In this document: piece after piece, positions 13,101 through 61,400 of the stretch
How positions within the stretch are numbered: position 1 is the stretch's first letter
Layout of the letters: each line of letters starts with the position of its first letter
DNA from: Austropuccinia psidii
Taxonomy: Eukaryota > Basidiomycota > Pucciniomycetes > Pucciniales > Sphaerophragmiaceae
Assembly (NCBI GenBank): GCA_023105745.1
Contig: JALGQZ010000002.1
Span: forward strand, 75,557,285 to 75,621,284
DNA: 64,000 bases
Reading direction: 5' to 3'
The notes under the pieces: model-generated
The model's database searches: none
The model's input: the letters and a program-made list of their open reading frames with translations, nothing else
Told to the model about the DNA's origin: nothing
Position numbers and translations under genes: made by a program

Positions 13101-15959
13101 AATTATATCCACTTCATGTCCAATTATGGCACCTAGTGGCTCTTTGTCAGTTGCAAAGGCATTTTTATACTTAAATAAGAGGTCAATCAATTTTTCTTTC
13201 ATTTTTTCTGTTGATTCTTGATTGAATTCTGCCTCTTTAAGTTGTTCAGATATACAAAGTTCCTTTGCTGCAATTTTTTCTTCCTTCTTAATAACTGTGA
13301 TTTGGTTTTTGTTATATAAGAAGCCAAACTTTTGTCTTTTGTTATCTCCTATGGTAAAATATCTATCCTTTTGGTTTGATATATCTATACCATAGATTGA
13401 TAAGTAGTCATTTCCAAGTATGAAATGATTACTAGTACAGTTGTCCATTACTACAAACTCTACTTTAATTCTGACACATTGTGAGGGATGAGGAAAAATT
13501 AGTGTTAAATCAATTATTCCAAGGGGCTTCTTGCTCTCACTTGCACTACTAAATTTGACACCTTGTATTGGAATAAGTTTTTCTTGCCAGTCTGGGACAA
13601 TGGTCTTTAAATAACTTTTGCCAACACAAGTGCAATATGCTCCTGTATCCAAGTTAACTTTTCCTTCTTGGTTATCAACAATAACAATACTTATACTTGA
13701 TTTTCCAGCTGTATATCCCATTCCTCTTGCAGGTTTGGTTCTATACATTTTGGCATCTTGTATGTTTGTCAGGTTTGTGTCAGATGATCCAACTTGTGGT
13801 AAGTTTGAATTAACATCCAGTACTTCATAAATTATATCAATATTATTAATTTGTGCATTATTTATATTGATTTCATCACTTTCAGAGCTTTCTGACTCTT
13901 CTGTCTCTTTTTCAGAGTCAGATTCCTCTTCTTTGTAATTGTGGTTTTCTGTTTCCACAATTTCATTAATTTTTGCTTTTTTAAGGCAATTATTGGCTGA
14001 GTGTCCAATACCTCCACATTTATGGCATTTTCTTTGCTCATTATTGTTGGATGTATTGGGCTTAAAGGATTCTTTTGATTTATCTTTTTTGATAAATGGT
14101 TTATTTGGGCTTTTAATGTCCAATTTCTTCCAAGTCCTGCCAATTTTTGTTCTTGTCACTATATCTTCTAGTGCAATTATATACTCTTCTGTGGAGCATG
14201 TTTCTATACACCTGCTTCTTAGGGCATGTTCTAGTTCCCCTCCACATTTTTGAAGTATTTTCATGTGCACTATCTTTTGTGACATTTCTGGGTAAAGTGC
14301 ATTAAGCCTTTCAACTTGTTTCAAGAACCAAGTTAAAGGTTTGTCTTTCTCTGGGTCAAAGAAAGAGTTTTCAAATGCATTTTCTATCTTATACCTCCAG
14401 GCATCATTTGCCCACTTGGTGATTATTTCTTGTTTCCACCAGGACCAGGTATTTTTACCATTTGCTTGTCTTATGCCATAATACCATCTTTTTGCAGATT
14501 TCTCAAACAATGAGTGTAATCTTGCAGTGATTAATTAATCTGGTATGGCATAGTCTTCTTGTAACATGTCAATTGTTTTAATAAATGACATGTGGTCATA
14601 TTCACCTTCTCCTGTGAATGTTGGCCATTCTTTCAATTGAGGTGCTGCCTTCATTAAGACTTGGTTATTATATTGGTGACTCAAGTCTGTTATGAAAGGA
14701 TTTTACAATTCCTCTTTTGTTTTAACAGGGCTTCTTATGTGAGAAAATGGTGTGGATAACTTTGGCATATTTGAGTTAGCATCATTAAGTTTATCCATTT
14801 TTTCAGTAATAAGCCTTATTTCACTTTGAATGTTATCTTTCACATGCATTCTTTCTTCATCCCTCTTTTCCACATGGTCCAAAAGTAATTTTTGGTGTGA
14901 TGAAGTATTTTCTTCAAATTTTTCTACAGAAATGCTCAATTAGTTTAATTTTTCTGTAGGATTATCAATACTCACATCATAATTGATTGTCAAAGTTTTT
15001 TCTTTGATATCACTTATGTATTTGTACAACCCTTGTTGTCCTTGTATTAATTTCTGAGTATTATCAATCAAATTCTTTGGTTTATTATTTTCAACAATAA
15101 ACTTAATGTTGTCAATTTCTTTCTTGTTTTGCACAACAATTTTTGTTAAAGAAGATAAATTGTTATTTATTTCTTGTAGTGATAATAAACTATCTTTAAT
15201 TTCTTTTAGAGGTAATATACTATTTTTAATTTCTGTTAAAGTATTTACAACATCTTTGGACAAGGTTATTTCTTTGGGAAATGAGGTTGTCTCATTCTTT
15301 GCTCTTCCTTGTCCTTGAATTCCATCAAGGTTCTGGCCATGTTGAAAACATTGTCCATGGCATCCTTTTGGATTCTTGGGATTCTGTAGCTTGGGGAATA
15401 TGGTTTCCTCCAATGCTTTTTCTTGTTCTTCTTCCCTTCTTGGGGAAGTGGGTTGGCTTGAGGCTTGCTGGTAGAAGCTACTGGGGCTTCTTCCTTGGTT
15501 GCCTCCCTCTTTTTGGCATGATAATCCTTGATTTTTTTGATTTGAGGTTTGGATGACAGTGGATTCCATCCATTGGAGTATTTCACTATCTCCTCCTGTT
15601 TGAGGAACTTTTTCAGGATGTGCCAGGAGTTCATCACTCCTTGGTGTATTGGAGGCAACATTTCCCAATCTTTGTCTTTGTACACTGTGTAGTACTGCTT
15701 GTACTGGCTCATGTAGATGTCTATTTGAGCCATCTGAATGTGATTTGTACCTATTTGAGTTACTCATACTTAGTTCCAATTCAGGCTCAGATATCATAGG
15801 CATTTCTGGGACTTGCCTTTGGGATAAGGCACTTCCTTGTGTGGATTCTGTTCCACAGGGGATATTGCCCTTTCTTTTCCCTTTTGAGGGATCAGTTCTA
15901 CTTCTGAGTCCAGCTCCATCTGATTGGATGGAGTATTGGGAACCTCTTCTGGTAGTGAT
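10161..15959 (-). pseudogene. gag-pol of element B (five stops, start codon lost)
   Basis: Single-frame Gag-Pol of the D family. By alignment with D the start should be at 15959, where ATG reads ATC. Stops lie at 14940-14942, 14703-14705, 14535-14537, 12162-12164 and 12069-12071, with no frameshift seen. Order: low-complexity N-terminus, coiled-coil segment (about 15260-14760), capsid domain rich in W (about 14630-14230), zinc knuckle [14 protein letters not shown] near 14010, DTG protease near 13650, RT with YIDD near 12600, RNase H near 12150-11800, and integrase with HHCC and DDE residues (11480-10980). The C-terminal end is a chromodomain-like segment, YLVRYRN. The final stop is TAA at 10161. 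Each broken codon is sense in at least one sister copy. Confidence 0.9.
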
Positions 15960-16185
15960 AATTTAAGAAATAAGAAAAATAAAAGTATTTTAGAATAAAA
16001 AATTTATTTATGGCAATTATAAAAGAGGTGCTCACCTTCAGAGTCTTGAATGGTGGGTCCTGGAAAGTCTAATTTCTTAGCTTTCTTTCTTTTAGTGATA
16101 ACTGGTGTTGGAGAACTTTGAAAAGTTTCTTCCACCAACCTCTCAACAGTAGCTTGGTTGTCTTCTGTTGGGTTATCTTCAAACA
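15266..16185 (-). CDS. Overprinted accessory protein of element B (spliced; predicted)
   Basis: Unknown function. Predicted exons are 16185-16036 and 15750-15266 (minus). The intron is 16035-15751, with a GTGAGC donor and a TAG acceptor. The first exon starts directly after an AG with TG, so an upstream exon ending in A would give ATG. Exon lengths (1+150+485) close to 212 codons, the same as in D. The protein has a polar N-terminus with a KRKKAKK cluster and an aromatic segment containing NGWNP. A basic Q/P/S-rich linker follows, then a C-terminal helix with VFNMARTLMEF, ending FPKK. It overlaps gag in another frame. It is fully open here although the gag frame of B has lost its ATG. Splicing is inferred from sequence only. 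Confidence 0.6.
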
Positions 16186-24500: not shown

Positions 24501-27386
24501 ATCCATGTCCAGGAGTTCATTGATATGTTTCTCAATCTCTTTCCTGGTCTCCAGACTTGCTTGGTAAGGAGGTCTCCTTAACATGGGTGGATAAGGCCTT
24601 TCTACATCCAGATATAGTTCTATATCATGGCCTTTGATCTTGCCTAATGGTTCTTCACCAATGTCAAATGCTGGTCTATTCTTCCTCAGCATCTTCAGTA
24701 AACTTAGCTTTTGTTTACTGGTGAGGGTAGTGCTAAACTGCCCCTCTCTGAATTCTTTCAGAATTTCTTCCAGTGGGTCCTGAGAGGATATCTGGTATAT
24801 ATCAAGAGAAAATTTCTTTTCCTTGTTAGTACCAATGGTAATATGCCTATTTTTACTATTGTAAATATCTATGCCATACATCCTCTGGTAGTCTGCTCCC
24901 AGTAAAAACCCTTGGATGTGGGCATTTTCAAGCACTACAAACTCTGGGTTGAGTCTGATATTACCTTTTCTGTGGGGTATAATTATCTCTTTGATAATTG
25001 TCCCAATAGAGGTCATCTTTCCAGATGCACTCTTAAAGTTCTTTGCCCTGGTGGGCAAGAGTTCTTTTTCCCAGTTTGGGAAGTGGTTATCCAGATAATT
25101 TCTGGCCACTATGGAGCAATGTGCTCCACTGTCAATGATCAGTGGGTGCTGAGCATTGTCAATACATACAGTCATTTTTGTGGCTGTTCCATGTATATAT
25201 GCCATTCCTTTGGTTGGTGTAACCAGGAATGTTTGTGCATCTTGTGTGTGTTTACACAAGTTCTTGTTGGCAGTGTCTTGTGGCATGCCTGCTTCCAACT
25301 GTATATCCTGGATTTCTAGTGGGGTTTCCTCTTGGTATTCCACTAAAAATTCCTCTCTTGGGTCTTGATCCTCATCAGATGGTTCTCTGATGGCATCACC
25401 CATAGAGTCTGATTCAGAATCCTCTGTTGGAGGTTCTTCTTCAGGGACTTTTTCTATAGCATAGACTTTCTTCTTTGCTTTTGGACAGTTGTTGGCATAG
25501 TGGTCTGTTGAACCACAATTGTGACAAGAATTCCTCTTCTTTGCCACTTCTGCCACTCTTTCTCTGGGTTTGTCTTTAAACTCTACCCTGAAAGGTTGTT
25601 TCTCTTTGAAACTATTGCTTCTATATGGGGTGAATTTCCCTATATTAGTCCTTTTCCTTATGTCTTGTAAGGTATTGGCTATATCATCCAGAGTGCAATT
25701 TTGGTTGCATCTGCACTTTACTGCATGCTCTAGTTCTCCTGGCAGTTGTGTCAGAAGTTTATGATTCCTCATTTGAATGTTCATTTGAGGATCAATGGCT
25801 TTAAGTCTTTTAGACTGTCTAAGACACCACTCATATGGATCTTTGTCCACAGAGTATTTGTCATTTTCAAATGACATGGTCTTTTGCCATATCCAAGTTC
25901 CATTACTGTACTTTTGGATTATTTGACTCTTCCACCATGGCCAATTTCTTCTGCCATGGATTTCTTTCATTTCAGTGTACCATATACTTGCATGACCTTT
26001 AAATGCAGTATTCAGTCTAGCAGTAATCCATTAATCTGGTATGCTTGGTACATCAATGAAGATTCCATCAATATAATCTATGAGTTCCATATGATCATAT
26101 TCTCCTGATCCAGAGATTTTAGGCCAGCTTGAGGCCTCAGGAAGCTGTTTCAAGGCTTCCTTCTCTGAGTAAGACATGCCATCTCCATCCTGGTATTGTG
26201 ATGGAGATCTTGCCTTATTCAACAACATGGCATCTGGTTTGATGTCATCTGGTTGATATGGATTCTCCATAGCTTGGCCTTGTGGTTGGGGCTTCAAGCT
26301 ATGGTAGGCATCAAACAATTTGTTGATATCTTGGTTCAGACACTCCCTGTCCCTGCTGCTATGGTGTTGTTCTTCAGAGACTTGATTCAGTCTCTTGTTG
26401 GTTTCTTCAGAGGCTTTGCTCAGTTGAGCATATCCTTCCTGAAGGTTTTTAACTATCTGCTCCAATGAGTCTTGAGTTTTTCTCATCCTCTCTTGGGCAG
26501 CTACAAATTCTGCAGCCTGCTTTGCAGATTGCTCAGCATATTGGGACATTTGCAACCACAGTGTGTCACTGTTGATGTTGCTCTCAGATGTGATAATGTT
26601 TTTTTCAGTCTGAGTGGGGGTAATGTTTCTATTACTAGGACTACTGATTCTAGAGTGGTTTACAACTACTTCTGGTTCTTGTGTACTTCTTTTACCAAAT
26701 CTAACAGCTTCTGGATCATGGGGTCTGACTCTTTCCTCCTCTGGTTGAAGGAGGCTTTGTTCTTGCCCTTTTTGCCTTGTCTTCTCCTGGAAACTTCCTG
26801 TAATTGTGAAGAATGGTGACTCTTGGCCACTGATCTGCTGGTTTCTGAATGGTGTGAAGCCACTGGAGAGCTGATGTGGCTTGCTCCTTGTGAACCTGAA
26901 GGAATCTGAGTAGGCCCTGTCTGGGTTAACTGTTCTTCTATAGCTTGGATAGTGGCTTGATTCTCCCTTATCCTCTGTGCCCTTGCCTCCAGGAGTCTGT
27001 GCTGCCTGGTAGGATTCCAACCCTTGGTGATTACCATAAGGTCCTTGAAGTCTATCTCTTTGAGACAGATCTTCTGGCAACTTGATCCCAGTTCTGCACA
27101 GTGAGTTGCTAGGTTGAACCTCTTGTTGTCCATGCTCCATTGAAACAAATCTTTGAGGAGTTGGTGGATTTGAAGAACTTGATCCATATCCTTCCAGTCC
27201 TCTGGTTTGAGGTTTCTGTTGAATTGGAGTGTGAATGGCAAGGTTGATATTATCTCCCTCATTGTTTTGCCATCCACCACTGTGTCCAATGTGTCTTCTT
27301 TCAGGTCTTCTGGTTCTAGACATTCCTGCTCTATCCTCTGGCTGGTTCCTTTGGAAGCCAAGGTCTCTGAGGTATGCAGGGGACAT
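21531..27386 (-). pseudogene. gag-pol of element C (two stops, RT active site YIDL)
   Basis: One frame from ATG at 27386 to 21531, interrupted only by TAA at 26031-26033 and TAG at 22767-22769. Gag has a long polar N-terminus and a coiled-coil-like segment. A W-rich capsid segment spans the first stop. The zinc knuckle [14 protein letters not shown] is near 25520. Protease has DSG at 25125-25133. RT has MPFGIKNAP, but its catalytic box reads YIDL: TTA at 24105-24107 replaces the second Asp of YIDD. RNase H, integrase (HHCC, then MDWV, ISDRD and GLAERM carrying the D, D and E residues) and a chromodomain-like YLVRFKN tail follow. The ATG lies inside a predicted intron of the overlapping gene. 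The protein is clearly related to D and H but distant. Confidence 0.9.
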
Positions 27387-28283
27387 ATCAGTGTTTGCAA
27401 GCAGTCAAAACCTTTATGTTCTTAGGGTATTTACCTTTGACTGTGCCTTGTACAAATTTGTTATCTGCTGCTTTGGGCAGTTTGCCTTTGGAAGTTACAA
27501 CTGGGTTAATAATTGTAATCTTCCCTGTACAAGTGGTTAAGGTTGGTTTACCTTGTATTGAAGCAGAGTTTCGTGGTTTTCTACTCCTCTGAGTGGCTAT
27601 TGGTGTCCACTTCTTGGCTGTAATGAGGCCTTCACTAAGCCTTTTTCCTTTACCCTTGCTGCCCTCTGGTTCTGAGGGTGTCACTGGTGTGTTGGCCTGT
27701 GACTGGGTTTCAAGTGGGATGTAGTTTTCTTCCACTGAATCAAAACAGGAAAAAGAGGGCTTATGTCAGTTAAGACTTCTTAAAGGGCTGGTTTTGCACG
27801 TCTAAGAATGGCCTCTGGGCTTGTATATTATTACAGTATGCCCTTGTATAATGACAGTGTAATTGAATTAACAATTTCACGTCAAAAATACAGCTTATGG
27901 TGTCCTGTCACACTGTTTGTGTGTCAGTATCCCTCAGATACACTTGTGGTTTGCAAGTGTATTCTGTAAAGGTGGTTTGTATACAAGTGTTATTGAATTA
28001 ACAATACACTTGACCACGCCTCAACTGATGGTTTTTCAGTCAGAGGTGTCCTTATTCAGTCAAGAATACAGGACTTTCTTAGTGGCTTATGTGTTTTATA
28101 TGCAAAACACGCCAAAAATAATAAATTACTGTGGGTGTTAACCACGTAAAAAATACTCTTATAATATGAGTATATATAAAAAAAAGGTAAAAATATATAA
28201 AATATATATATTTAAATAGAAATTACGCCTAAAAAGGATAAAACAATATGTTAATAAGTCATAACAAAGAGAAAAGACTTACT
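26666..28283 (-). CDS. Overprinted accessory protein of element C (spliced; predicted, splice-made AUG)
   Basis: Unknown function. The predicted leader exon ends in A at 28283, next to a consensus donor GTAAGT. Intron 28282-27735 ends CAG. The next exon (27734-27435) starts TG, so the junction reads ATG followed by EENYIPLE. A second intron, 27434-27367 (68 bp, GTAAAT...CTCAG), contains the Gag-Pol ATG. The last exon, 27366-26666, runs in the frame overlapping gag. Lengths 1+300+701 give exactly 334 codons. The protein has a basic, P/T-rich N-terminal part, a helical aromatic segment with KGWNP, an S/Q/H-rich linker, a KKGKNK cluster and a C-terminal helix. The order of parts and the GWNP motif match the B/D/G/H proteins. 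Splicing is inferred. Confidence 0.6.
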
Positions 28284-30096: not shown

Positions 30097-30836
30097 TGTA
30101 GCAACCATCCATCAGGGGTAAGGGTATTAATTAATACACCCACTCAAGCACCTAAAATCAGCAGATCCAGTATCTGCATCAGCATTCAGTTTCAGCAATC
30201 TTCATTCTGAAACATGCATACAGCTTGGTACCTCAATACAGCCTGTCAATACTTGTACAGGTTGGATTCACCCAATACAGTTTCAATACACCAGTATGAA
30301 ACTGTATGATCACTCAAATACACCACACCTCTTGTACAGGACCTGTATTGGCCAGACTCAATTCAATCATCAATTATTCTCATGAAAATTCTTCCTCTTG
30401 ATCAGGGCTGGGGATTCTCACATATACCAGCCCCTCTTTCTCCCCCCTGGGGACTTTTCCCCAGTTAATTAATTTAGTTTATTTATTATTTTATAACTAT
30501 TCTGATCCTTATTTTGGGTATCTTAATTATTTGATTTTAAGTTAGTCTTAGCATTTCTCTCTTCGCCTGTACAGTATGAGTTGGGTAGTCATATCCTTAT
30601 TAACCCTTCTCTTTCCATTCTGACAGGTTGAAACAGTGGACTTGGACTTGTTTGTGGTTGGCTCTTCTATTTCTTATTCTTATACTTTTGTTGCTGCTTT
30701 CTTATATTTATTCTTTTAGTAATTCATCTTTAACACTCTTAGTATATCCTTTCTTACCATATCTTTGAGCCCTCCATAAGTGAGTCCCAGTTTACTGAGT
30801 GCCAGGCCCTCTTCACTTTGAAGAGCCCCTGTGACA
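30097..30836 (+). repeat. 3' LTR of element A
   Basis: 740 bp, TGTAGCAACC...CCCCTGTGACA. Its 3' half aligns with the LTR of element F (46506-48215). Both share CTGGGGACTTTTCCCC then AGTTAATTAAT, a GACAGGTTGAAACAGTG-like block and the terminal GAGCCCCTGTGACA. It lacks the GC-rich palindromic block that makes F's LTR about 970 bp longer. The right flank, from 30837, is internal sequence of copy G. Confidence 0.85.
30419..30473 (+). promoter_or_regulatory. Likely promoter core and transcript start of A LTR
   Basis: CACATATAC (TATA-like) lies about 40 bases before AGTTAATTAAT, with the palindrome CTGGGGACTTTTCCCCAG between them. The same arrangement and spacing occur in the F LTR. Placing the start at AGTTAATT is inferred from complementarity to the leader. 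Confidence 0.45.
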
Positions 30837-30837
30837 G

Positions 30838-31721
30838 TGTTTGAAGACAACCCAACAGAGGACAGCCAAACCACTGTTGAAAGATTGGTGGAAGAAACTT
30901 GTCAAAGCTCTCCAACACTAATAATTACCAATAAAAAGAAAGCCAAGAAATTGGACTTTCCAGGACCCACCATTCAGGACTCTGAAGGTGAGTACCTCAT
31001 TTATAAATTACCACAAGAAGAATTCCTGTTCTTAAATCCTCTTATTTCTTATTTTTCTTATAATATGACTACCAGAAGAGGCTCCCAATACTCCATCCAA
31101 TCAGATGGAGCTGGACTCAAAAGTAGAATTGATTCCTCAAAAGGCAAAAGGAAGGGCAATATCCCCAGTGGAACAGAATCCACACAAGGAAGTGCCTTAT
31201 CCCAAGGCAAGTCCCAGAAATGCCCATGATATCTGAACCTGAATTGGAACTAAGTATGAGTGACTCCAATAGGTACAAATCACATTCAGAGGGCTCAAAT
31301 AGACATTTACATGAGCCAATACAAACAGTACTACACAGTGTACAAGGACAAGGATTGGGAAATGTTGCCCCAAATACACCAAGGAGTGATGAACTCCTGG
31401 CACATCCTGAAAAAGTTCCTCAAGGAGGAGGAAATAGTGAGATACTCCAATGGATGGAATCCACTATCATCCAAACCTCAAATCAAAAACATCAAGGAGT
31501 ATCATGCCAAAAAGAAGGAGGCAACCAAGGAAGAAGCCCCAGTAGCTTCTACCAGCAAGCCCCAAGCCAACCCACTTCCCCAAGAAGGGAAGAAGATTAA
31601 GAAGATTAATTGGAGAAAACCATATTCCCCAAGCTACGGGATCCCCAAAATCCAAAAAGATGCCATGGACAATGTATTCAACATGGCCGGAACTTTGATC
31701 GAATTCAAAGACAAAGAGTAA
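30838..31721 (+). CDS. Overprinted accessory protein of element G (spliced; predicted, 5' end cut by A)
   Basis: Exon 30838-30987, intron 30988-31272 (GTGAGT donor, TAG acceptor), exon 31273-31721. Lengths 1+150+449 close to 200 codons. It is the same protein as in B and D but ends 12 residues early at TAA 31719. Element A ends at 30836, so the upstream exon and acceptor context are separated from it. The frame is fully open, although the overlapping gag frame has a deletion near 31203 (inside the intron) and a TAA near 31598. Function unknown. Confidence 0.5.
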
Positions 31722-32804
31722 CAAAGAATGAGACAACCCCATTTCCCAAAGAAATAACCTTGTCTCCTGATGTTGTAAATACTTTAACAGAACTTAAAAA
31801 TAGTATTTTACCTTGTAAAGACATTAAAAATAGTTTATTATCTTTCTAGGAAATAAATACTAGCTTATCATCTTCAATAAAACTTGCTGTACAAAATAAA
31901 AAAGATATTGATAACATAAAATTTATGATTGAAAATAATAAACCAAAAGTACTAATTGATAATACTCAGAAATTAATACAAGGACAACAAGGGTTGTACA
32001 AATACATAAGTGATATCAAAGAAAAAACTTTGACAATCAATTATGATGTGAGTATTGATAATCTTACAGAAAAATTAAACAAATTGAGCATTTCTGTAGA
32101 AAAATTTGAAGAAAAGACTTCATCACACCAAAAATTACTTTTGGACCATGTGGAAAAGAGGGATGAAGCAAGAATGCATCTGAAAGATGACATTCAAAGT
32201 GAAATAAGGCTTATTACTGAAAAAATGGATAAAATTAATGATGCTAACTCAAATATGCCAAAGTTATCCACACCATTTTCTCACATAAGAAGCCCTGTTA
32301 AACCAAAAGAGGAATTAACAAATCCATTCATAACAGACTTGAGTCACCAAGACAATAACCAAGTCTTAATGATGGAAGAACCTTAGTTAAAAGAATGGCC
32401 AACATTCACAGGAGAAGGTGAATATTACCACATGTCATTTATCAAAACAATTGACATGCTACAAGAAGATTATGCCATACCAGATTAATTGATCACTGCA
32501 ACATTACATTCATTATTTGAGAAATCTGCAAAAAGATGGTATTATGGCATAAGGAAAACAAATGGCAAAAATACCTGGTCTTGGTGGAAACAAGAAATAA
32601 TCACCAAATGGAATAATGATGCCTGGAGGTACAAGATAGAAAATGCATTTGAAAATTCTTTCTTTGACCCAGACAAAGACAAACCTTTAACTTGGTTCTT
32701 AAAACAAATTGAAAGATTGAATGCACTGTACCCAGAAATGTCACAGAAAATGGTGCACATGAAAATACTTAAAAAATGTGGAGGAGAGCTAGAACATGCC
32801 CTAA
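31065..32804 (+). pseudogene. gag of element G, 5' part (broken)
   Basis: It starts with ATG at 31065, aligned to the D start. A 1-bp deletion near 31203 shifts the frame. TAA near 31598, TAG near 31847, TAG near 32384 and TAA at 32486-32488 interrupt it. The coiled-coil segment (about 31750-32260) and the W-rich capsid segment (about 32395-32800) are recognisable. The gene is cut by element H after the codons for GGELEHAL. Confidence 0.85.
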
Positions 32805-34726
32805 TGTGAGCCTTGAGGTATATTTTACATACCCAAATAGGCCACAATTATCTTAAAAATAAATTCTGAATAATGCATACCTCATAAGTCATGCATATAT
32901 TCAAATTTCATTATTTTTGATTTCAGAAAAGTTGAATAACGTTTCATTGAGTAAGTAGATCCATGAATTTAAGGCCAGATTTGGATTCTAAAGAAAAATT
33001 CACCTAGGGTAGCTCCATAGAGTGGATAAGCTCAAATTAACTCTTTGAGGTGGTAAAATGGAAAATACTTCAATACCACATCATTAATACCACATAAAAG
33101 ATCCGTGAAAATTTTTGTTTTTCTTAAATTCACGCCAAAATAATGGGAAAGTGAGAAATCCCATGTTACATATACACTAAGAATAGTGTTATGCATTTTT
33201 TGAGCACTTAATATTATGGTATTCTTACATGGACTTTTGGTACACCCATAGTGTATATCTCACTTTAAGCTTAAATTTCTATTTTGACGTGAAAAATAAG
33301 CAAGGGGGACAAAAGACATCAAAGAGAGCCAGGGTACCCAACTTCTGAGGCCCCAGAGGCGTGGATAGCTCCAAAGCTTGGTTCCATGGCTCATCTTAGC
33401 CCAATTGGTAAACTAAACCTCTTTGGGAATTTGGTTACCAAGTTACACATACTGTAAATCATAAGAAAATAGCAAATAACCTGCTATTTTGACATGCCAA
33501 GGAGGTAATGAGCTACTTAAACTCCTGTAACCACGCCAATTCTTGATGACTTTCCATGCCTAGACCCTAAAAGAGTAATTAAAATCCTTTTGGGACCTAT
33601 ATTCATTGATTTACCTCATAGCAACCAGCAAAACACTGCTATTTGCAATTCTACGTAGAAATGAGGTAAAACCTTTAAAAATTCATTAAAAATACAATTC
33701 TTAATTAATATTTCTGAAACTTTCAGGACTAATGGAGAGCTTTATTATCTATGGTACAACCAAAAAGAACTACAGTTTTACTAGTAAAATTAAAAGGTTT
33801 ACTTACAGTCCATTTTTGACTCTTCTACGTGAAACATTGAATCTTCAAAAAATCACAGTAATTACAACCTGTGATGAAATTGGCAATAAAATTGATAAAT
33901 TTGAGAAATCAATTATTATTTTGGAATAAAAGAAGATTTACAGGTGTTACTCCTTTTATTCTTGACCATATTGGGGTTGGTAGTCACGTAAAAGCATCAA
34001 ATAAGTAATTATGATAATGTTACGTGACAAATAATGATGCAATCAATAAACCAAAAGGGTTTATTGTTTTCTCACTCACTGGTTTTTCAGTTTGCTCCAT
34101 GGCATGCCTCTGTGAGCTGTCTTAGACTTAAAAGAGGCCTCCTCTTGCTGTTTTTTCCACATCATCATCTTATTATCATTTAAACCATTATTACCAACAA
34201 GTAAGTATTAGTTAAAGCTATTCTTAAGTGTTTTTAAGCTTTCAGAATCAATCAGAAAGACGTGAAATCATAGAATCCAACTATATATTGCTGTAATAAT
34301 TCTATAAATCCATTTTGATCCTTAAAATCCACAATTCTACGTCAAATCTCTCTACCTTATCTTTCAATAAGCTCTTTGGAATATTAGTGAGTGATTTATT
34401 TTTAATTCTCAAAGTTTTTCTCTAAAATTAGTTTTCTTCAAGAATTACCATTATAATTATTCTTGCAAAAGATAATTATATATTGAAATAATTTTATTAT
34501 TTTAATAAAAGAAGTTTTTATTATTAAAATCTTCTTGTAATTGATTCTTGTGGACAATTACTTGCTCGCTGTTAAAATCACTAGTAGTGTTTAACACATG
34601 AAAGAAATAATTTTTAATTATTCTATTGTGGTTATAATAATATCTTATTATTATATTTCATAAGAACAGACATAGTACTGTTGATTAATAGTAATATTAT
34701 CATCAGTTTCATAGTCACATCTTACA
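32805..34726 (+). repeat. 5' LTR of element H
   Basis: 1922 bp, TGTGAGCC...CTTACA, partner of 41159-43079. It contains a 65-codon ATG frame at 33732-33929, present also in the 3' LTR, which I do not call as a gene because its changes look unconstrained. Confidence 0.95.
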
Positions 34727-34728
34727 TT

Positions 34729-34744
34729 TGGGGGCCTGGCCGTG
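34729..34744 (+). other. Primer-binding site of element H
   Basis: TGGGGGCCTGGCCGTG, two bases after the LTR. It matches a tRNA 3' end down to C61. The tRNA is probably tRNA-Pro because of the C discriminator (inference). Confidence 0.85.
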
Positions 34745-35115
34745 TTTTTTGAACCTTGTACCCTTAATTAATATATTTTTAAGCTCTAAAAGATATTAAT
34801 TTAATTAATTTTTTTTCTTTCAATTTGAAGTTAAAATATTTTTATTTTTGAAATTGTTTTAAAAATCCTTTTCATTGAGGAATTTGGTTTAATTTCATAC
34901 TGTTTTTACACATGGCTTTTTCACATCCAAAAACTTATAAAATTATTCTTTGAGTTACTCTGAATTAATTTTCATTCAAAATCTTAAATTGTAATTTTTT
35001 TCTTTGGAAAGAATAATTTTTTTAATATTAAAAAATATAAAACTTATAAAAAATCTTTAAAAATATTTTAAAAATAGTATAAAAAATAATTTTTCTCTTT
35101 TATAATTTTTTCTAG
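34745..35115 (+). other. Leader of element H
   Basis: AT-rich, no supported gene. The block at about 34906-34960 (ACACATGGCTTTTTCACATCC onward) aligns with the D leader at 57213-57264. It ends with a pyrimidine-rich tract and TAG at the predicted splice acceptor. Confidence 0.6.
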
Positions 35116-36088
35116 TGTCTTTAATCAAATACTGTGCAGCTGGCAACAGACTCAGGAAGATATATATAACTAGTCCAGAATCTGAAGACAGTATTGAGGT
35201 GCAAATTGCTAAAAGATGCACCTTATTCAACTCAGAAAAAGCTAAATTACCACCAAAAGGTGTGTATTTTATCTTATATTTTCACCTTTTATCCTTAAAT
35301 TGACGTGAAAATGGTGCATACCAGAAATGGAAGCAACTATTCAGTCCAACCAGATGGATGTGGACAAGGAAGAGGCAAGGCCAAATCCAGAAGTGCCAAG
35401 TCTTCCACAAGAAAGACACATTTGGAGGATGCCAGAGTTGCCCCCCATTCCCCAAGGTCTGTACCCACAGATTTTGACATGAATTCTGAGCCTGAACTAA
35501 TTTATGATAATATTTCCACGGCTGAACCATTTTCAAGTGGCAGAAATAGAAATATATCAGAGCCAGTACAAAAATTGGTTCAGAGCAGCCAAAGAAGAGG
35601 AGTGGGAAATCTGCCCAAGCCTTTGGCAGGGGGCCATGAACTCCTACTTACACATCAAGAGCTTTCTGGGTCAGGAGAAGACCATAGAACTCTTAGGAGG
35701 TTGGAGCCCCCTGTCTTGCAAAGACAAGGTCAAAAAGATAAAGAGTTTGTTGAAGAACCAAGGTCTTTTATCCATAGACCAGAAGAAAGAGTTGGAAATG
35801 ACTCCAGCATTGGAGACAGAGGCACCAGTGGCATCTACCAGCTCCAAACCAGCTCCAGAAGCATCCAAGGACAAGCCCAAAGGACCTCAAAAGAAACAGA
35901 GAGGTCCCAAGAACCATTAAGGCAAGGGCAAAGGCAAAGCCAATTGGCACAGACGTTACCTACAAGGGTACAGGATCCCCAAATTGGAGCCTTCAGCCAT
36001 GGACGGTGTCTTCAATATGGCCAGAACTCTTATGGAATTCACAGCCAAGGAGCAGGAAAGGATGAAAAGGACTTTTCCACGCAAATAA
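35116..36088 (+). pseudogene. Overprinted accessory protein of element H (spliced; one stop)
   Basis: Exon 35116-35259, intron 35260-35537 (GTGTGT donor; CTGAAC branch-like site, then TTTTCAAG acceptor), exon 35538-36088. As in C and D the first exon begins TG right after AG and ends in phase 1. Lengths 1+144+551 close to 232 codons. A single TAA at 35918-35920 interrupts it in the linker. Residue identity to D is high at AxIxIYxSQYK, in WExxP, GW and KKIK, and most of all at YRIP...AMDxVFNMARTLMEF and the FPRK end. In the gag frame this same stretch is less conserved. The Gag-Pol ATG (35311) lies in the intron. Function unknown. Confidence 0.6.
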
Positions 36089-50024: not shown

Positions 50025-53000
50025 CTAAATATCATGAAATAACGGCTTTATCATTACAAGCAGTCCACATGACAGAGCTTTGTTATCATACAATCCACAG
50101 TTACCTTCTATTTCTTCTTCTGATATAATCAAGTGTCCATCATCAAAACCAACAGCTTTATAAATATTGAGATACGGCCAATCTGGTAGGAAATTCACAT
50201 CAATCTTCAAAGTTTTTAAAATCAGAAAGTTATTATTAAGTATGCTAGATGGCTCAGAGACTTTGAAAATGCTATCAATAATACCAAATTGTCGTGAGTT
50301 GCCCCTCAGAAAACATATCACACTGTTGCTGATATTTTTGGATTCAGTTGAAAATATATTGTTCCCAATATTAATGTTTGAAACTGGAAAATACCAAGGT
50401 GAGACAATCCTTGAAGTGGGAGGACTTGTGGATTGCATGGTAGTGTCTAAGCTGATCCAATCAACTACTTCCCTTGTGGAATGAAAATTCTGTAAGTACT
50501 CAACCAGGCAAGCATAATTTTGTTGGTCATGGCGGGATGGCTTGTTATATTTATGGTGATTGAACACGGCAGGTGGCTGTGATTCGAAAAGCTGTTTTAT
50601 TTCACATGGCACAGATGGGGATTTCAGGAGAACGGAAAGGTTGGAACATCGACAGATATGTTGAAGTAAGGTTTTATCTATATCATCTATTCAGAGTTGC
50701 AAAAAGTTAGTCTTATTCAGTTCAGGTGTTTCATCAATGTGAATATATTGATCTTATTAATTGACGTACATATCTTGTTATTTGTTGGCATCTTTGCAAA
50801 TACTCCAATCAAGCGCTCATAACCCCATGTGGCTGAGGCTTGTGCTGGGCCCCAACGTTGGAAGAGTTCGGGAATATGATCAGCAAAATGATGATTTGGT
50901 TTACTTTTCTGTTTTGGGAACAGGTGTTGATTGGAAAGGCGGAATTTTTTCCAATGTTCAGCAAATGCAGTCGCATCATCTATTGAAACAGTCCAGCTTG
51001 TGGCAATGTTGATAGCACTAATCAAATGGAATGTATTCTTGGCTAGTTCATTTGCAAGTTCTTCTGACTGACCCATTTTTCTTTGAGTGTTGGCAGATTG
51101 GTGTGCATCTAATGACATCTGTTGACTGAGCATTAGAAATGGAATATAGACTTTATATAAGAGAGCCCATTCAGCGGCTTTTAAGCTACCATGAGAGGGG
51201 GAACCCATTTTGCGGGGAACTCTTGTCCATGATGAGGGAATTATGGTCTCAGATATGATTTGTGGGAGATGCTCAAGAGCCTCACCCTTGATCTGGTGAT
51301 CACTCAGTGCAGTGATATCCAATTCAGAGGGTATTTCAGAAGTGGGGATGTAATCGGCATCAAATGAAGGAATCTCCGCAGAACCACTAGATGGATGTTC
51401 TGTGTTAGGGGTGGGCATTGGGAAGTAGTTTTTTCGGGTGGAAGTAGTGGGGAGTGGCTCATTTATTATTTTTGCTGCGTCTCTTCTCAGGGAGCGGGCC
51501 TCTCTCAATGTGATTTTATCAAGAGAGCTGTTGGAGGTCTTGGAATCTGAGTCTGAACTGTTGGTGTCATTGGATTTCCTGCGGGACCTGAAGTAAATTT
51601 TTGATTTCGCCTCTGGAATGCACAATTTGAAAGTTGCATGATCCTTCAAAATTCCAAGTATTAAATTATGCATTATGTCAAGATTAACCATTCTGGTTGC
51701 ATCCCAATACGGAAGGTCTTCCAAAATTGAATATCGCACTCCATACTCAGAGAAAATTGCTTGTCTTTGTTGTGGGGTTGCCCGAAGCCATTTGGCAATG
51801 GTTGATTTATGACTTTGGTATGAGCGCGTGTAGTGAAATTGAGGACCAATTTCTTCAATTTGAGCTTTGTGAATGGTGCAAAAATTACAAAAGTGGTTTC
51901 CTGAATGGGAAATAAATCCAGTAAGCTTGCGCATGGCAACCACATCCGCAATGGCTGTGAGGATGGCAACACGGATAAAGGATCCTGATGGACCTGTTGA
52001 GGTGGGTGCAAAATGGTAACCCTGCCATAGCTCTTTGAGCTCGTTGATGAGTGGCATTAATAGATAATTCAATTGAAGCGCAGTTGGCTCCTTCAGACCA
52101 GGGATGATTCCTGCAACATAGACATTCTCGGGCTTCAATCTTTCACTTGGGGGGAGATTAAGACAAATAAGCATGATAGGTCCAATGCTAGCCAACCGGG
52201 TTGACTTTCCATGTGCATTAAACCAGTCCACATATATGGAGAAGGCCAATGCACCAGGAATGGACATGAATGGGGGGTCATGGATATTTCTAGTGCCAGT
52301 GAAGCGTCTCCAGACCAATCCATCCCAGACGTCACGTTTTGGGGAATCTTCGGGAGTTTGGGATTGTTGATGTTGATGCAGAATGTCCATAATTCCAGCC
52401 CGCTGGAGAAATCTGGCAAGCCAATTTTTGAATGGTTGATAAATGAAATGTTTTGTTGGTATAAATTTTTGCTTCATGTTGGTTGTGTTTTGGGTGTGGG
52501 GTTCAGATGAATAGATGAATTTGCCTAATGATTGTGTGCAAGGGGGATCATGATCATTTGGGTCATTATGGCGTTGACAGTGGGGTTGGTCAGTTGTGAC
52601 TGATTCAGTAAGGCCATTAAGAGAGAAACATTGAGGACAACATATATAGTTTTGAATCACTGGCCCCAATTGGAGATGTTCAAATATGGTACTCAGATCT
52701 TGAGGTATATGGAATGCAGGAGCGGGGGGACCAGCTGAGCTTGAGATACTGGACTTGATCAGCAGGTTCAGGGCGGGGTTGAGTATGCGTGAAGCCCTGC
52801 GGGGTAAATTATACCTTAATGATAGAATGGCAGATATTATCATTCCTAGGTCTTGTGGGGGAAGGGTTTGACTGCCACTATATGGTTTCTGTGCAGTTGA
52901 ATTGAGAGCCGCTGCAGTTGGGAAAGTGCTTTGGGTCAAACGTGAATAATCAGCTGGGAAGATTTGATCCAATAGAATTTGTGGGCACCCAGATCCTGAT

Positions 53001-53185
53001 GCAGAAGTAGGGATGTTTGGAAGAGATTTGGGTGCAAGGGTTGATTTGAGCTTTTTAATGTGCTGTTTATATTGGAAAGGTGTGAAGGCAACTCCTTGCC
53101 TATCACCCTCAGGGGAAGAGTGTGTTTGAGTTGAGCAGTGTTGACACATGCATATACGCATTGAGGAATAGGGCCGGGTTGTCAT
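50025..53185 (-). CDS. CACTA/Tnp2-like transposase, spliced, probably complete
   Basis: Cut-and-paste DNA transposase of the type widespread in basidiomycetes. Exon 1 is 53185-50770 and exon 2 is 50686-50025, with an 83-bp intron (donor GTACGT, branch site CTAAC, acceptor TAG). Exon lengths give 1026 codons with no stop. Residue positions: CMCQHC near 12-17, zinc-type CPQC...CQRH near 184-205, a YVDWFNAHGK motif with the likely first catalytic Asp near 320, KPENVYVAGIIPGLKEP near 352-368, HFCNFC near 432-436, and NLDIMHNLILGIL near 501-513. Without the intron, translation stops at TGA 50717 after KHLN; with it the frame continues into a typical C-terminal part. I could not locate CACTA-type terminal inverted repeats, so the transposon ends are unknown. 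Confidence 0.8.
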
Positions 53186-55041: not shown

Positions 55042-57068
55042 TGTGAGCCTTTGAGATATGACCACATACCCAATAAGGTCACAAAAAATACTCCGAATAA
55101 TTATACCTTTAATATAATTATATTAAAATTAATTAGAATAATTATACACTAAAAATAATTACTCAAATATACAAAAAATACCATAAATTGGTACTAAAAT
55201 TGGTTTAACTTAAAAACCAATGAATGAACATGTGAAATAAATTATACCATTGGATTCCCCATGGAAAAATACACATATACCATTTTTATGGCATATCTGT
55301 AAAGCCAATATTTAAGGAATTATAAGGTACAATACCTTATAAAAACCATAAAAACTTATTTATCTCAGAAACTAATGAAACAACATGTGAAATAAATTGT
55401 ACCAGTGGATTCCCCACAAAAATCCACATATAAAACAATTAATAAGCTAATTTCCAATGTTAATACTTAAGGAATTATCCTGAATATATGCACTTTTTTG
55501 GTCAACGCATATATTCAAGGATCATAGCTAATATCTTCTAAACTATACATGATAGAATGATGAACAAAAAATAAAGTTACCACGTAATTACTGTAAGAAC
55601 ACAGATATGAACTTTATTTTACAAATTATAAACAAGGTTAAAACCTATGATGAATTATTGATAAAAATCAACAGAGCTGTTGACCACTTTGTTGTGAAAG
55701 TGTTCCAAACTTAAAAAAAAGTACACAGTTAGACTCTCCTAGTTCATTCGTGAAGAATGATGTAATTTTTATTATTAAATTCAGGGTATAACCCCCTGAA
55801 ATCAAGGTTTGAAGTTTAAAATATTGAATTTCGACAGAAAAGATGAGTTACAAGAAAAATCATCAAAATTAGAGTTTTAATGATGTAATGAAAAGCTCTT
55901 GGCAGCATAATAAGGTTATGTCAGGCTATCAGAATTCACTTTCTGAATTGCTGTAGCGTGAAAACCTTAAAAGTTATTGAGGATCAAAATTTGAGCTTAA
56001 ATTGCGCTGTTATGATCACATACTGTAACCTTAAATTAAGTTTAACAGTCTTAATAGTGATAAAATTGGTGAATACTATTAGTTTATGATTAAAACTAAC
56101 AAAATCAATGAAATTTGGGGTTCTGCCAAGCCTCTGATGTCATCACACTTAGAGTTATAGTGATAACTCTAAATAATGGTGTAATAATGATGTAATATGG
56201 TTTGATCATGATGTAATCACCCTCAAACCTTAAAATATTGATCAATTCCAGTGGATATGATCAGTACACGTCTACTAGAAGCCTGTTGGACTCTAGGAGG
56301 GAGGTATTTACTATAAATAGAGCTCTTTTTACTCTATTTACCCCTCAGACGCATCAAAAACATTAAATCAATTAAATCAAAGGTAATTTCTTTATTCTTT
56401 ATATATAAAACTGTTATATTATTAAAGACCAAAGACCACCTTGCTATAATCATCTATTTTGACGTGATTAAATCATTTATTTAATTGTTTTTGTTAAAAA
56501 TCTCTCTAATAACTCATTTCCACGTAAAAATCCAGAATAATTTGTAATTTTCTTTATTTTTATTGTAAATACAATTTGAAAAGGTTGTATTTATATTTTT
56601 TGGCGTAAAATACTTCAAAATTGTTATATTAAGTGTTAAAAGTAGGTTATGTTCTCTTATTATAATAATTTCTCTATTATTACTCTTTTAATAATTCTTT
56701 AATTAATATAAATAGTATTTATATTAATTCATAACTTTAATATTAGTAATATTATTGTTATTAATTGTTTTTTATTAATAAAAAACAATTTTTTACGCCT
56801 TTATTATTTGTTGGTAACAATAATAAAGAGCTTTATAATATATTAATTATTTTATATTAATATATTATTTATAATATTATAATTTCATATAATATTAATT
56901 ATATTATTATATTTATTTAATAATATAATATTTTTTACGCCATAATAATAATATATCTTTATTATTATTATTATTTTAATCTTATTTATTTCAATTATAA
57001 GGACATTCAGAGTACAATAAGTAAAAAATTGGTAATTTTTACTTATTGTTTCATAGTCAAACCTTACA
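55042..57068 (+). repeat. 5' LTR of element D
   Basis: 2027 bp, TGTGAGCCTTTGAG...CCTTACA. Its termini match the B LTRs and it is very AT-rich. The length is far above the few hundred bases common for fungal Ty3 elements. Confidence 0.95.
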
Positions 57069-57070
57069 TT

Positions 57071-57086
57071 TGGGGGCCTGGCCGTG
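57071..57086 (+). other. Primer-binding site of element D
   Basis: TGGGGGCCTGGCCGTG, two bases after the LTR, the same site as in B, H and Z. Confidence 0.85.
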
Positions 57087-57550
57087 ATATTTACTTAAAA
57101 GACCTTTAAAAAGATTCTATTTGGGTTTATCCAATAATAAATTATATAATAATTTTATATTTTATTGATTTTAAAAGCTATTGAGGCATTTGGAAAGCAA
57201 TTGTACTGTCTTACACGTGGTTTTTCACATCCTTAGACTTGCAAGAACTTTCTTTGAGTGACTCTAGTGATTAAAAAAGATAATTTATAAATTAAAAATA
57301 ATTTTTATTATAATTTAATTTTATAAGAATCATATTCATTTTTCTTATTCTTTAAAAATAAAAATATACATAAAAAATATTAAAAAATATTAAAAACCAA
57401 TAAAAAAAGTTATTTTTATTCATTTTTATTGATTTCTTTATTTATTTCATTTTTTTAAGATATAAAAGCAATTTCTACGTGGAAAATTGCCATATCTTGC
57501 CAAAAATAACACTTCTTATAAAAAGACTTATATTTATTTGTCTTTTTTAG
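57087..57550 (+). other. Leader of element D
   Basis: No gene. It contains the conserved block 57213-57264 and ends with a pyrimidine tract and TAG, the predicted splice acceptor at 57549-57550. A clear upstream donor as good as the one in C was not found. Confidence 0.6.
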
Positions 57551-58468
57551 TGTTTGAAGATAACCCAACAGAAGACAACCAAGCTACTGTTGAGAGATTG
57601 GTGGAAGAAACTTGTCAAAGTTCTCCAACACCACTTATCACCAAAAGAAAGAAAGCTAAGAAATTAGACTTTCCAGGGCCCACCATTCAAGACTCTGAAG
57701 GTGAGAACCTCTTTTTAAATTGCCATAAAAGAATTTTATTCTAAAATACTTTTATTTTTTCTTATTCTTTAATTATGACTACCAGAAGAGGTTCCCAATA
57801 CTCCATCCAATCAGATGGAGCTGGACTCAGAAGTAGAATTGATCCCTCAAAAGGGAAAAGAAAGGGCAATATCCCCAGTGGAACAGAATCCACACAAGGA
57901 AGTGCCTTATCCCAAAGGCAAGTCCCAGAAATGCCCATGATATCTGAGCCTGAATTGGAACTAAGTATGAGTAACTCAAACAGGTACAAATCACATTCAG
58001 AGGGCTCAAATAGACATCTACATGAGCCAGTACAAGCAGTATTACACAGTATACAAGGACAAAGACTGGGAAATGCTGCCTCAAATATACCAAGGAGTGA
58101 TGAACTCCTGGCACATCCTGAAAAAGTTCCTCAAAGAGGAGGAGATAGTGAAATACTCCAATGGATGGAATCAACTGTCATCCAAACCTCAAATCAAAAA
58201 AATCAAGGATTATCATGCCAAAAAGAGGGAGGCAACCAAGGAAGAAGCCCCAGTAGCTTCTACCAGCAAGCCTCAAGCCAACCCACTTCCCCAAGAAGGG
58301 AAGAAGAACAAGAAAAAGCATTGGAGGAAACCATATTCCCCAAGCTACAGAATCCCAAGAATCCAAAAGGATGCCATGGACAATGTTTTCAACATGGCCA
58401 GAACCTTGATGGAATTCAAGGACAAGGAAGAGCAAAGAATGAGACAACCTCATTTCCCAAAGAAATAA
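57551..58468 (+). CDS. Overprinted accessory protein of element D (spliced; predicted)
   Basis: Exon 57551-57700, intron 57701-57983 (GTGAGA donor, CAG acceptor), exon 57984-58468. With the A from an upstream exon the start codon forms as A|TG. Lengths 1+150+485 give 212 codons without a stop. Order in the protein: acidic start FEDNPTEDN, basic KRKKAKK near residue 35, an aromatic SQYKQYY segment near 60, NGW near 100, a basic P/Q-rich linker, YRIP, and a C-terminal helix with VFNMARTLMEF, ending FPKK. The Gag-Pol ATG at 57775 is inside the intron, so spliced and unspliced RNA would make different proteins. The second exon overlaps gag in another frame. Function unknown. No signal peptide or membrane segment is seen. 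Confidence 0.65.
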
Positions 58469-61400
58469 CCTTGTCCAAAGATGTTGTAAATACTTTAACA
58501 GAAATTAAAAATAGTATATTACCTCTAAAAGAAATTAAAAACAGTTTATTATCACTACAAGAAATAAATAACAATTTATCTTCTTTAACAAAAATTGTTG
58601 TGCAAAACAAAAAAGAAATTGACAACATTAAGTTTATTGTTGAAAATAATAAACCAAAGAATTTAATTGACAATACTCAAAAATTAATACAAGGACAACA
58701 AGAATTGTATAAATACATAAAAGATATCAAAGACAAGACTTTGACAATCAATTATGATGTGAGTATTGACAATCTTACAGAAAAATTAAATAAATTAAGT
58801 ATTTCTGTAGAAAAATTTGAAGAAAAAACTTCATCACACCAAAAATCACTTTTGGACCATGTGGAAAAAAGTGATGAAGCAAGAATGCATCTGAAAGATG
58901 ATATTCAAAGTGAAATAAGGCTTATTACAGAAAAAATGGATAAGATTAATGAGGCTAACTTACATATGCCAAAGTTATCAACACCATTTTCTCATATAAG
59001 AAGCCCTGTTAAAACAAAAGAGGAATTGTCAAATCCTTTCATAACAGACTTGAGTCATCAAGACAACAACCAAGTCTTAATGAAAGAAGCACCTCAATTG
59101 AAGGAATGGCCAACATTCACAGGAGAAGGTGAATATGACCACATGTCATTTATTAAAACAATTGACATGTTACAAGAAGACTATGCCATACCAGATGAAT
59201 TAATCACTGCAAGATTACATTCATTATTTGAGAAATCTGCAAAAAGATGGTATTATGGCATAAGACAGACAAATGGTAAAAATACCTGGTCTTGGTGGAA
59301 ACAAGAAATAATCACCAAGTGGGCAAATGATGCCTGGAGGTATAAGATAGAAAATGCATTTGAAAACTCTTTCTTTGACCCAGAGAAAGATAAACCTTTA
59401 ACTTGGTTCTTAAAACAAGTTGACAGGCTTAATGCACTGTACCCAGAAATGTCACAGAAGATGGTGCACATGAAAATACTCCAAAAATGTGGAGGGGAAC
59501 TAGAACATGCCCTAAGAAGCAGGTGTATAGAACCATGCTCCACAGAAGAGTATATAAATGCACTAGAAGATATAGTGACAAGAACAAAAATTGGCAGGAC
59601 TTGGAAAAGATTGGACATTAAAAGCCCAAATAAACCATTTATCAAGAAAGATAAATCAAAAGAATCCTTTAAACCCAATACATCCAACAATAATGAGCAA
59701 AGAAAATGCCATAAATGTGGAGGTATTGGACACTTAGCCAATAATTGCCTTAAAAAAGCAAAGATTAATGAAATTGTGGAAACAGAAAACCACAATGACA
59801 AAGAAGAAGAATCTGACTCTGAAAAAGAGACAGAAGAATCAGAAAGCTCTGAAAGTGATGAAATCAATATAATTAATGCACAAATTAATAATATTGATAT
59901 AATTTATGAAGTACTGGATGTTAACTCAAACTTGCCACAAGTTGGAACATCTGACACAAATCTGACAAACATACAAGATGCCAAAATGTATAGAACCAAA
60001 CCTGCAAGAGGAATGGGATATACAGCTGGAAAATCAAGTATTAGTATTGTTATGGTTGATAACCAAGAAGGAAAGGTTAACTTGGATACAGGAGCATATT
60101 GCACCTGTGTTGGCAAAAGTTATTTAAAAACCATTGTCCCAGACTGGCAAGAAAAACTTATGCCAATACAAGGTGTCAAATTTAGTAGTGCAAGTGAGAG
60201 CATGAAGCCCCTTGGAATAATTGATTTAACACTAATTTTTCCTCATCCCTCACAATGTGTCAGAATCAAAGTAGAGTTTGTAGTAATGGACAACTGTACT
60301 AGTAATCATTTCATACTTGGAAATGACTACTTATCAATCTATGGTATAGATATCTCCAACCAAAAGGATAGATATTTTACCATAGGAGATAATAAAAGAC
60401 AAAAGTTTGGATTCTTAAATAACAAAAAACAAATCACAGTTATTAAGAATGAGGAAAAAATTCCAGAAAAAGAACTTTTTATATCTGAACAACTCAAAGA
60501 GGCAGAATTCAATCAAGAATTAACAGAAAAAATGAAAGAAAAATTGATTGACCTCTTATTTAAGTATAAAAATGCCTTTGCAACTGACAAAGAGCCACTA
60601 GGTGCCATAATTGGACATGAAGTGGATATAATTCTTAATGTATAAAAACCTTACCCACCTTTATTAAGAAGACCTGCTTATCCAGCCAGTCCAAGAGCTA
60701 GAGAAGCCCTAGAGGTGCACATTAAAGAATTAATGGACCTTGGAGTATTAAGAAAGGTGGGAAATAATGAGCAAGTAGAAGTTACTACACCTGTCATTAT
60801 AACTTGGCATAATGGAAAATCAAGGATGGTAGGAGACTTCAGAGCCCTGAATACCTATACCATTCCAGACAGATATCCAATACCCAGAATCCATGAGACA
60901 TTGACCCAATTGTCACAAGCTAAGTTCATCACAGCTATGGATGCTCTTAAGGGTTTTCATCAAAATGTCTTAACAGACAATGCCAAGAAACTACTAAGAA
61001 TAATAGTCCATTGTGGAATTTTTGAATACTTAAGAATGCCATTTGGGATAAAAAATGCACCTTCCCATTATCAAAGAATGATGAATACCATATTTCCTGA
61101 AGAATTATCAGAAGGATGGTTAATAATCTACATTGATGATATCATAGTTTGCTCAGAAACTTGGGAAAATCACCTGACAAGACTAGAAAAGGTACTACAG
61201 AAAATAGTCCAAGTAAATATGAAAATTTCATTGAAAAAGTGTCATTTTGCATATAGTGAATTATAAGCCCTAGGACATGTAGTATCTGGACTTAGTCTAG
61301 GCATAGACAAAAATAAAGTAGCAGCAGTACTACTTAAACCAATGCCTCAAACTAAAAAAGAAATGCAATCATTTCTAGGATTTGCTGGTTACTATAGACA

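Follow-up and report, generated by a model that had tools for sequence, protein, structure and literature searches.

In a stretch of 64,000 nucleotides (nt) of the Austropuccinia psidii genome (hereafter the window; G000:C2:75557285-75621284), nested Ty3/gypsy retrotransposons carry a candidate accessory gene which overlaps gag in a second reading frame and is interrupted by introns, one of them holding the start codon of Gag-Pol. The elements are designated D (plus strand), B and C (minus strand), H (plus strand) and G+F. From the comparison of genomic copies, it is very probable that the accessory frame is coding in three families (D, H and C) and that splicing switches one RNA between Gag-Pol and an accessory protein. 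Copies of all three families have lost introns exactly, two copies of the C family have also lost an intron of the leader, and the accessory frame is constrained in D and H. We infer splicing in living cells from these copies, read as retro-copied RNA, and both products are presumably translated.

A first-pass annotation, made from the letters of the window, had drawn attention to this gene in D. Its observation is partly confirmed and its interpretation partly supported. A spliced gene with the Gag-Pol start inside an intron is borne out by intron-less copies and by the ratio of nonsynonymous to synonymous substitution rates (dN/dS), whereas the one long intron of that proposal has given way to short introns and an additional leader intron.

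Structure of the accessory gene

As first described, an open exon of D is followed by an intron with the Gag-Pol ATG, and gag is overlapped by a second frame up to the accessory stop (Table 1). The single introns of 283 nt in D and 278 nt in H did not hold, as each element has two introns in the gene body, and the total of 212 codons given for D (a protein of 211 amino acids, aa) becomes a protein of 255 aa once the 132-nt exon between them is included. The donor of D exon 1 reads CTGAAG/GTGAGA (a slash marks the splice border), and intron 1 ends immediately behind the gag ATG (ATGACTACCAG/). The GT and the ACCAG of intron 1 are conserved in 39 of 39 intron-bearing copies, and the gag ATG in 36 of 39 D-family copies. 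For intron 2 of the D family, the donor GCAAGT is present in 39 of 41 aligned rows and the acceptor AG/GTA in 40 of 41; its donor is GC in the D family versus GT in the H family.

The plan of the D gene is repeated in B, G, H and C. This part of the earlier description stands, including the 68-nt intron of C, but not the long introns of D and H. Exon 2 of H has the same length of 132 nt as that of D, and intron 2 of H measures 63 nt at the family acceptor (35519), while C has one intron in the gene body versus two in D and H. Individual copies in the window are damaged. In G, a single nucleotide is deleted from exon 2 and exon 3 is interrupted by a stop; in H, the frame contains one TAA and the acceptor of intron 2 is damaged.

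The probability that a second frame is open by chance in a single copy is about 0.02 for D exon 3 and about 0.01 for H exon 3; for C it is 0.03 or 0.13 under two null models, and the openness of exon 2 is unremarkable. By itself, the open frame is only modestly unlikely; it is the intron-less copies together with the substitution tests that carry the case.

Table 1. Features of the accessory genes and of the overlapping Gag-Pol frame in the window
Feature	Position	Strand	Remarks
D candidate leader intron	56642..57550	+	donor A/GTAGGT, acceptor TTTTTTAG/TG; equivalent join seen in two C-family copies
D accessory exon 1	57551..57700	+	open in one frame only; begins TG after acceptor; no internal ATG
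D intron 1	57701..57785	+	85 nt, GT-AG; Gag-Pol ATG at 57775 inside
D accessory exon 2	57786..57917	+	132 nt; overlaps gag; both borders set by intron-less copies
D intron 2	57918..57983	+	66 nt, GC-AG; contains accessory-frame stops
D accessory exon 3	57984..58468	+	overlaps gag; stop 58466-58468
D Gag and start of Pol, open reading frame (ORF)	57775..60645	+	956 codons; zinc knuckle
B accessory gene	15266..16185	-	exon 1 16185-16036, exon 2 15948-15817, exon 3 15750-15266; gag ATG lost
G accessory gene	30838..31757	+	exon 1 30838-30987, exon 2 31076-31206, exon 3 31273-31757
H candidate leader intron	34387..35115	+	donor TATTA/GTGAGT, acceptor CTAG/TG; both sites kept in 31/31 rows
H accessory gene	35116..36088	+	exon 1 35116-35259, exon 2 35325-35456, exon 3 35520-36088
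H introns	35260-35324 (intron 1); 35457-35519 (intron 2)	+	intron 1 ends just behind gag ATG
C leader intron	27735..28282	-	548 nt; donor CCTTACAA/GTAAGT, acceptor TTCAG/TGGAAG; exactly missing in L095 and L096
C accessory gene	26666..27734	-	exon 1 27734-27435, exon 2 27366-26666
C intron	27434-27367	-	68 nt; gag ATG at 27386 inside, intron ends just behind ATG

Genomic copies without introns

The A. psidii assembly (1.015 Gb, 84 contigs) was searched genome-wide for the exon joins, allowing up to 3 mismatches and with the reversed sequences as control. The join of D exons 2 and 3 occurs at two genomic places, both perfect, and the join of exons 1 and 2 at four, two of which are the exon 2/3 loci; the reversed control gave 0 matches for either join. 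All four copies (L009, L010, L011 and L014) lack bases 57701-57785. Bases 57918-57983 are missing in L009 and L010 and retained in L011 and L014, as if intron 2 were spliced less efficiently. Since the nearest relatives of L009 and L014 keep their introns, and L010 and L011 are nearest to each other, intron 1 of D has been lost at least three times independently. All four copies retain the leader.

These joins bear directly on the single 283-nt intron, which as the main form would skip the 132-nt exon. The reading phase closes with or without this exon, but the direct join of exons 1 and 3 (57700/57984) has no match in the genome at up to 3 mismatches, compared with four and two places for the short-intron joins, and exon 2 is open and 132 nt long in both D and H. 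We regard the long intron as a very improbable main form; a minor exon-skipped form may accompany the one with short introns.

Of 30 loci fetched for the H family, 5 are without intron 2, and in 4 of these intron 1 is missing as well. This proportion is not a frequency, for the query protein covered the exon 2/3 join and intron-less loci were therefore ranked first. Both introns are exactly missing in L046-L049, and intron 2 alone in L045. The C family has 20 uninterrupted matching places, of which eight were fetched (all seven contiguous places without stops and one with a stop), and six of the eight are without exactly the 68-nt intron. In the remaining two (L078 and L082), the donor is kept and a different internal deletion lies at the border between intron and exon 2. 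Upstream, the leader intron is kept in four of the six intron-less copies and exactly absent from two (L095 and L096). Two intron-bearing C copies resemble element C of the window.

Altogether, base-exact losses between splice sites affect six intron positions in the D, H and C families. Most of the fetched copies that were not selected for intron loss retain their introns. The first-look candidates (38,819, 42,196, 34,640 and 33,667, of which 150, 150, 150 and 114 were scored) are not copy numbers.

Selection on the two reading frames

For the D family, dN/dS was calculated over all 903 pairs of 43 copies, with relative rates taken from the leader and intron 1 and with codon resampling (intervals in parentheses). 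Left out were L001 (element D of the window), L012 and L013 (the same loci as L009 and L010) and L024 (exon 3 only). The H calculation comprised 31 rows.

In exon 1, where gag is non-coding, dN/dS of the accessory frame is 0.41 (0.24-0.67) in D, the other frames giving 1.59 and 1.92; the corresponding values in H are 0.37 (0.15-0.99) and 2.67 and 2.11. In exon 2 of D, it is 0.37 (0.20-0.82) for the accessory frame and 0.64 (0.32-1.45) for gag, and in H 0.70 and 0.66, with wide intervals for both. The clearest result comes from exon 3, with 0.33 (0.21-0.50) for the accessory frame versus 1.38 (0.93-2.24) for gag in D, and 0.21 (0.13-0.31) versus 1.51 (0.82-3.70) in H. Here the accessory frame is the constrained one and amino-acid constraint on gag is not detectable; the notion of a weak passenger under gag does not apply to the accessory gene. 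The separate calculation for both frames had been suggested in the first-pass annotation, and its outcome is not a pattern of constraint confined to gag. The claim that D and H are more alike in the second frame than in the gag frame of these bases also proved right: identical codons in exon 3 amount to 71 of 148 in the accessory frame, 51 of 151 in gag and 43 of 138 in the third frame.

In intron 2, where the accessory frame does not code, the gag frame has a dN/dS of 0.47 (0.17-1.15) in H and 0.52 in D, and in the gag-only stretch behind the accessory stop the values are 0.51 (0.29-0.88) in D and 0.93 (0.56-1.71) in H. Pairwise differences in exon 3 versus this following stretch are 0.063 versus 0.114 in D and 0.034 versus 0.132 in H. 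An alternative test for D used 21 disjoint nearest pairs, in which post-insertion decay weighs most; in exon 3, it gave 0.62 (P 2e-4) for the accessory frame and 1.28 for gag.

It could be argued that there is no second gene at all, the frame being open over gag by chance and the intron-less copies being ordinary deletions. Openness alone is indeed weak evidence, and two of the eight contiguous C copies carry another deletion. This explanation is already contradicted and scarcely credible, given base-exact losses at six intron positions in three families and accessory dN/dS values well below 1 where those of other frames exceed 1.

Leader and start codon

No ATG is present in exon 1 of D, B, G and C, and the single one in exon 1 of H is out of frame. 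Exon 1 begins with TG behind an AG in 40 of 43 D-family rows, 31 of 31 H rows and 7 of 7 C rows. Upstream donors ending in A are found in the D family (A/GTAGGT in 31 of 40 aligned copies, A/GTAAGT in 2 more), in H (A/GTGAGT, 31/31) and in C (AA/GTAAGT or AA/GTGAGT in 7 of 7 intron-bearing rows). In L095 and L096, the leader join reads ATGGAAGAA. As these two copies are without the leader intron and their join is A/TG, the start codon of C is made by splicing. The equivalent sites suggest that D and H would assemble theirs in the same way.

Directly behind the end of the long terminal repeat (LTR) lies the conserved TTTTGGGGGCCTGGCC, a putative primer-binding stretch. In C, this stretch precedes the leader donor, so that leader-spliced RNA would remain a possible template for copying. 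The candidate donor of D lies ahead of the stretch, which would explain why the four intron-less D copies kept their leader. A reading of exon 1 from the unspliced leader was rejected: the leader shows many insertions and deletions between copies, mostly in non-multiples of three, as opposed to three such events in exon 1, two of them multiples of three, and the leader splice is visible in two C copies.

In D, TATAAATA is located at 56312. The transcription start was taken near 56345, and ATGs were counted from there to the gag ATG. The leader of D contains 1 ATG versus 16.6 +/- 3.9 expected, that of H 3 versus 13.5 and that of C 2 versus 12.2, and the LTR controls are at expectation (D 34 versus 33.0, H 25 versus 26.5, C 26 versus 25.6). 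An ATG-poor leader fits ribosomes that scan unspliced RNA as far as the gag ATG.

Alternatively, Gag may not start at 57775, and its N-terminal 230 codons would be untranslated and merely open. The gag dN/dS of exon 3 (1.38 and 1.51) and the gag-frame stops there in 13 of 39 copies would agree with this. We consider it unlikely in view of leaders poor in ATGs up to the gag ATG in three families, the retention of that ATG in 36 of 39 copies and the gag-frame dN/dS of about 0.5 within intron 2.

Predicted protein product and database relatives

The predicted D product has an isoelectric point of 9.3. Its KRKKAKK is encoded by exon 1; a conserved core follows, then a linker containing GKKNKKK, and the conserved VFNMARTLMEF forms the last stretch. 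The motif KRKKAKK is exact in 23 of 43 D copies, and the rest mostly show K/R changes. The C protein shares the layout and a GW.P motif with D. Searches yielded no Pfam family at the cut-off and no PDB relative for the D protein, and for C a sole PDB row at E 0.68.

Protein searches gave 355 matches for D, 699 for C and 726 for H (the queries may share members). The relatives among the best 120 listed per query are hypothetical proteins of Austropuccinia psidii MF-1. For C, 105 of the 120 listed proteins align across the join, and for H, 115 of 120 span exons 2 and 3.

Several observations weigh against the gene and switch as drawn here. In the test with disjoint pairs, exon 1 gave 0.71 (P 0.057; 0.65 without CpG-like sites, P 0.03) and exon 2 0.77 (P 0.21), and the gag-only control of 1.99 disagrees with the 0.51 from all pairs. 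Stops over the overlap are found in the accessory frame of 13 and in the gag frame of 13 of the 39 intron-bearing D copies, and the leader acceptor is lost in 3 of 43 D copies. Among the 120 listed database proteins, 3 span exons 1 and 2 of H. None of the 120 listed for D does so, one (P0003) has the exact exon 2/3 join, and most of the models are 148-aa ORFs from an ATG within exon 3. Structure models are helical but uncertain, with poor mean pLDDT (predicted local distance difference test) values of 63 and 46. By a simple pattern, a classical leucine-rich export signal was absent from D and weakly matched in H and C. Finally, the C and D proteins show no significant similarity, profile comparison included, so it is unproven that the C gene and the D/H gene descend from one ancestor.

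Carrier elements and other features of the window

D is a Ty3/gypsy LTR retrotransposon by the order of reverse transcriptase, RNase H and integrase and by its LTRs. The Pfam matches are, in order, RVT_1, RT_RNaseH, Integrase_H2C2 and rve, a zinc knuckle is also present, and paired direct repeats with 99% identity lie about 8.65 kb apart; the 3' LTR is cut off by the end of the window. A near-perfect inverted repeat (CAATAAGTAAAAA...TTTTTACTTATTG) was spotted by eye at 57013-57050, near the 3' end of the D 5' LTR. The LTRs of D (55196-55478) and B (18270-18532) contain, in the 5' part, diverged repeats spaced by about 155 nt.

G+F is a single D-like element interrupted by H (32804/43080). The homology of F to D ends at 46505, inside pol. 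The upstream border of G was considered as a spliced leader and rejected, being the end of another LTR: at 30415-30836, the LTR end of another element (about 67% like 47767-48215) adjoins G at the exact exon 1 border and removes the G leader and acceptor. An Rfam search of 28500-31200 gave no match. On the minus strand, 50720-53185 holds an 822-aa ORF that matches Transposase_21 (tnp2) and weakly Plavaka.

Discussion

The arrangement suggests a switch between two products. On unspliced RNA, ribosomes would scan the ATG-poor leader to the Gag ATG and produce Gag-Pol. On spliced RNA, the Gag ATG would be removed with intron 1 and the accessory frame joined, resulting in a basic, helical accessory protein. 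An accessory start codon ahead of the Gag ATG would interfere with scanning; it would exist only after splicing. Because most of these fetched copies keep their introns, RNA with introns must be able to leave the nucleus, enter particles and serve for copying, and an accessory protein in the nucleus would help the unspliced element RNA to get out.

Complex retroviruses solve the export of unspliced RNA by Rev and Rex, small basic regulators which are made from fully spliced RNA and overlap other genes. The product described here would likewise be small, basic and made from a spliced RNA overlapping another gene, and it would solve the same export problem. It differs in that the simple pattern found no classical leucine-rich export signal in D and in that the carrier is a fungal retrotransposon; no homology was seen, none having been looked for.

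A gene of this kind is already known. The first-pass annotation knew of none in Ty3/gypsy elements, but CERV, from the C. elegans Ty3/gypsy element Cer1, has been described as the product of a spliced multi-exon RNA, partly in a non-gag frame, which was shown to be needed for nuclear export of the unspliced RNA and which has no relatives outside its own group (PMC10309623, accessible part). Measured against that account, the rust gene also codes partly outside the gag frame and, as exact intron-less copies in three families indicate, would be encoded by spliced element RNA, the unspliced RNA serving Gag-Pol. A basic KRKK stretch is common to both, a likeness by description and without sequence comparison. 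Unlike what the accessible part reports for CERV, the whole accessory frame differs from gag here, it overlaps the 5' part of gag, and splicing removes the gag start codon; export was shown for CERV and is only proposed here. By analogy, we tentatively suggest a role in RNA export, although we would sooner bet against it than for it.

There is about an even chance that the same spliced gene has another job: its protein may assist Gag as a partner or in assembly, restrict copy number or counteract silencing. The protein is basic, helical and without known relatives, D is without a classical export signal, and Ty1 reportedly makes restriction factors from internal Gag starts. Such functions do not predict a switch that hinges on intron retention, and CERV is the nearest described parallel.

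In the plant LTR elements Ogre, EVADE and BARE, an intron divides the RNA of one element into separate pools; the product described for EVADE and BARE is a short Gag isoform, and the accessible part mentions no distinct second-frame protein whose start codon is made by splicing, as proposed here (PMC12786077). No report of the present gene, or of such a gene in a fungal element, was found in the open-licence PMC literature, and the words gag and intron are absent from the main text, as accessible, of PMC8063080 and PMC12210899.

If the export role applies, rust Ty3/gypsy elements would have evolved, independently of both animal retroviruses and Cer1, a programme like that of complex retroviruses, with an ATG-free leader, a splice-assembled start and a Rev-like protein licensing nuclear export, and high-copy families so equipped would have helped to fill a gigabase genome; we put this forward as a possibility that is still rather doubtful. 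Spliced accessory genes such as those of complex retroviruses and of one element in a nematode would then extend to fungal LTR retrotransposons. The switch would be a clear one, with one splice to delete the Gag start and a second, observed in the C family, to create the accessory start. Hundreds of 'hypothetical proteins' of the myrtle rust would be pieces of transposon accessory genes, and the gene described here would be a concrete candidate, open to testing, for the factor that sustained these high-copy families in so large a fungal genome.
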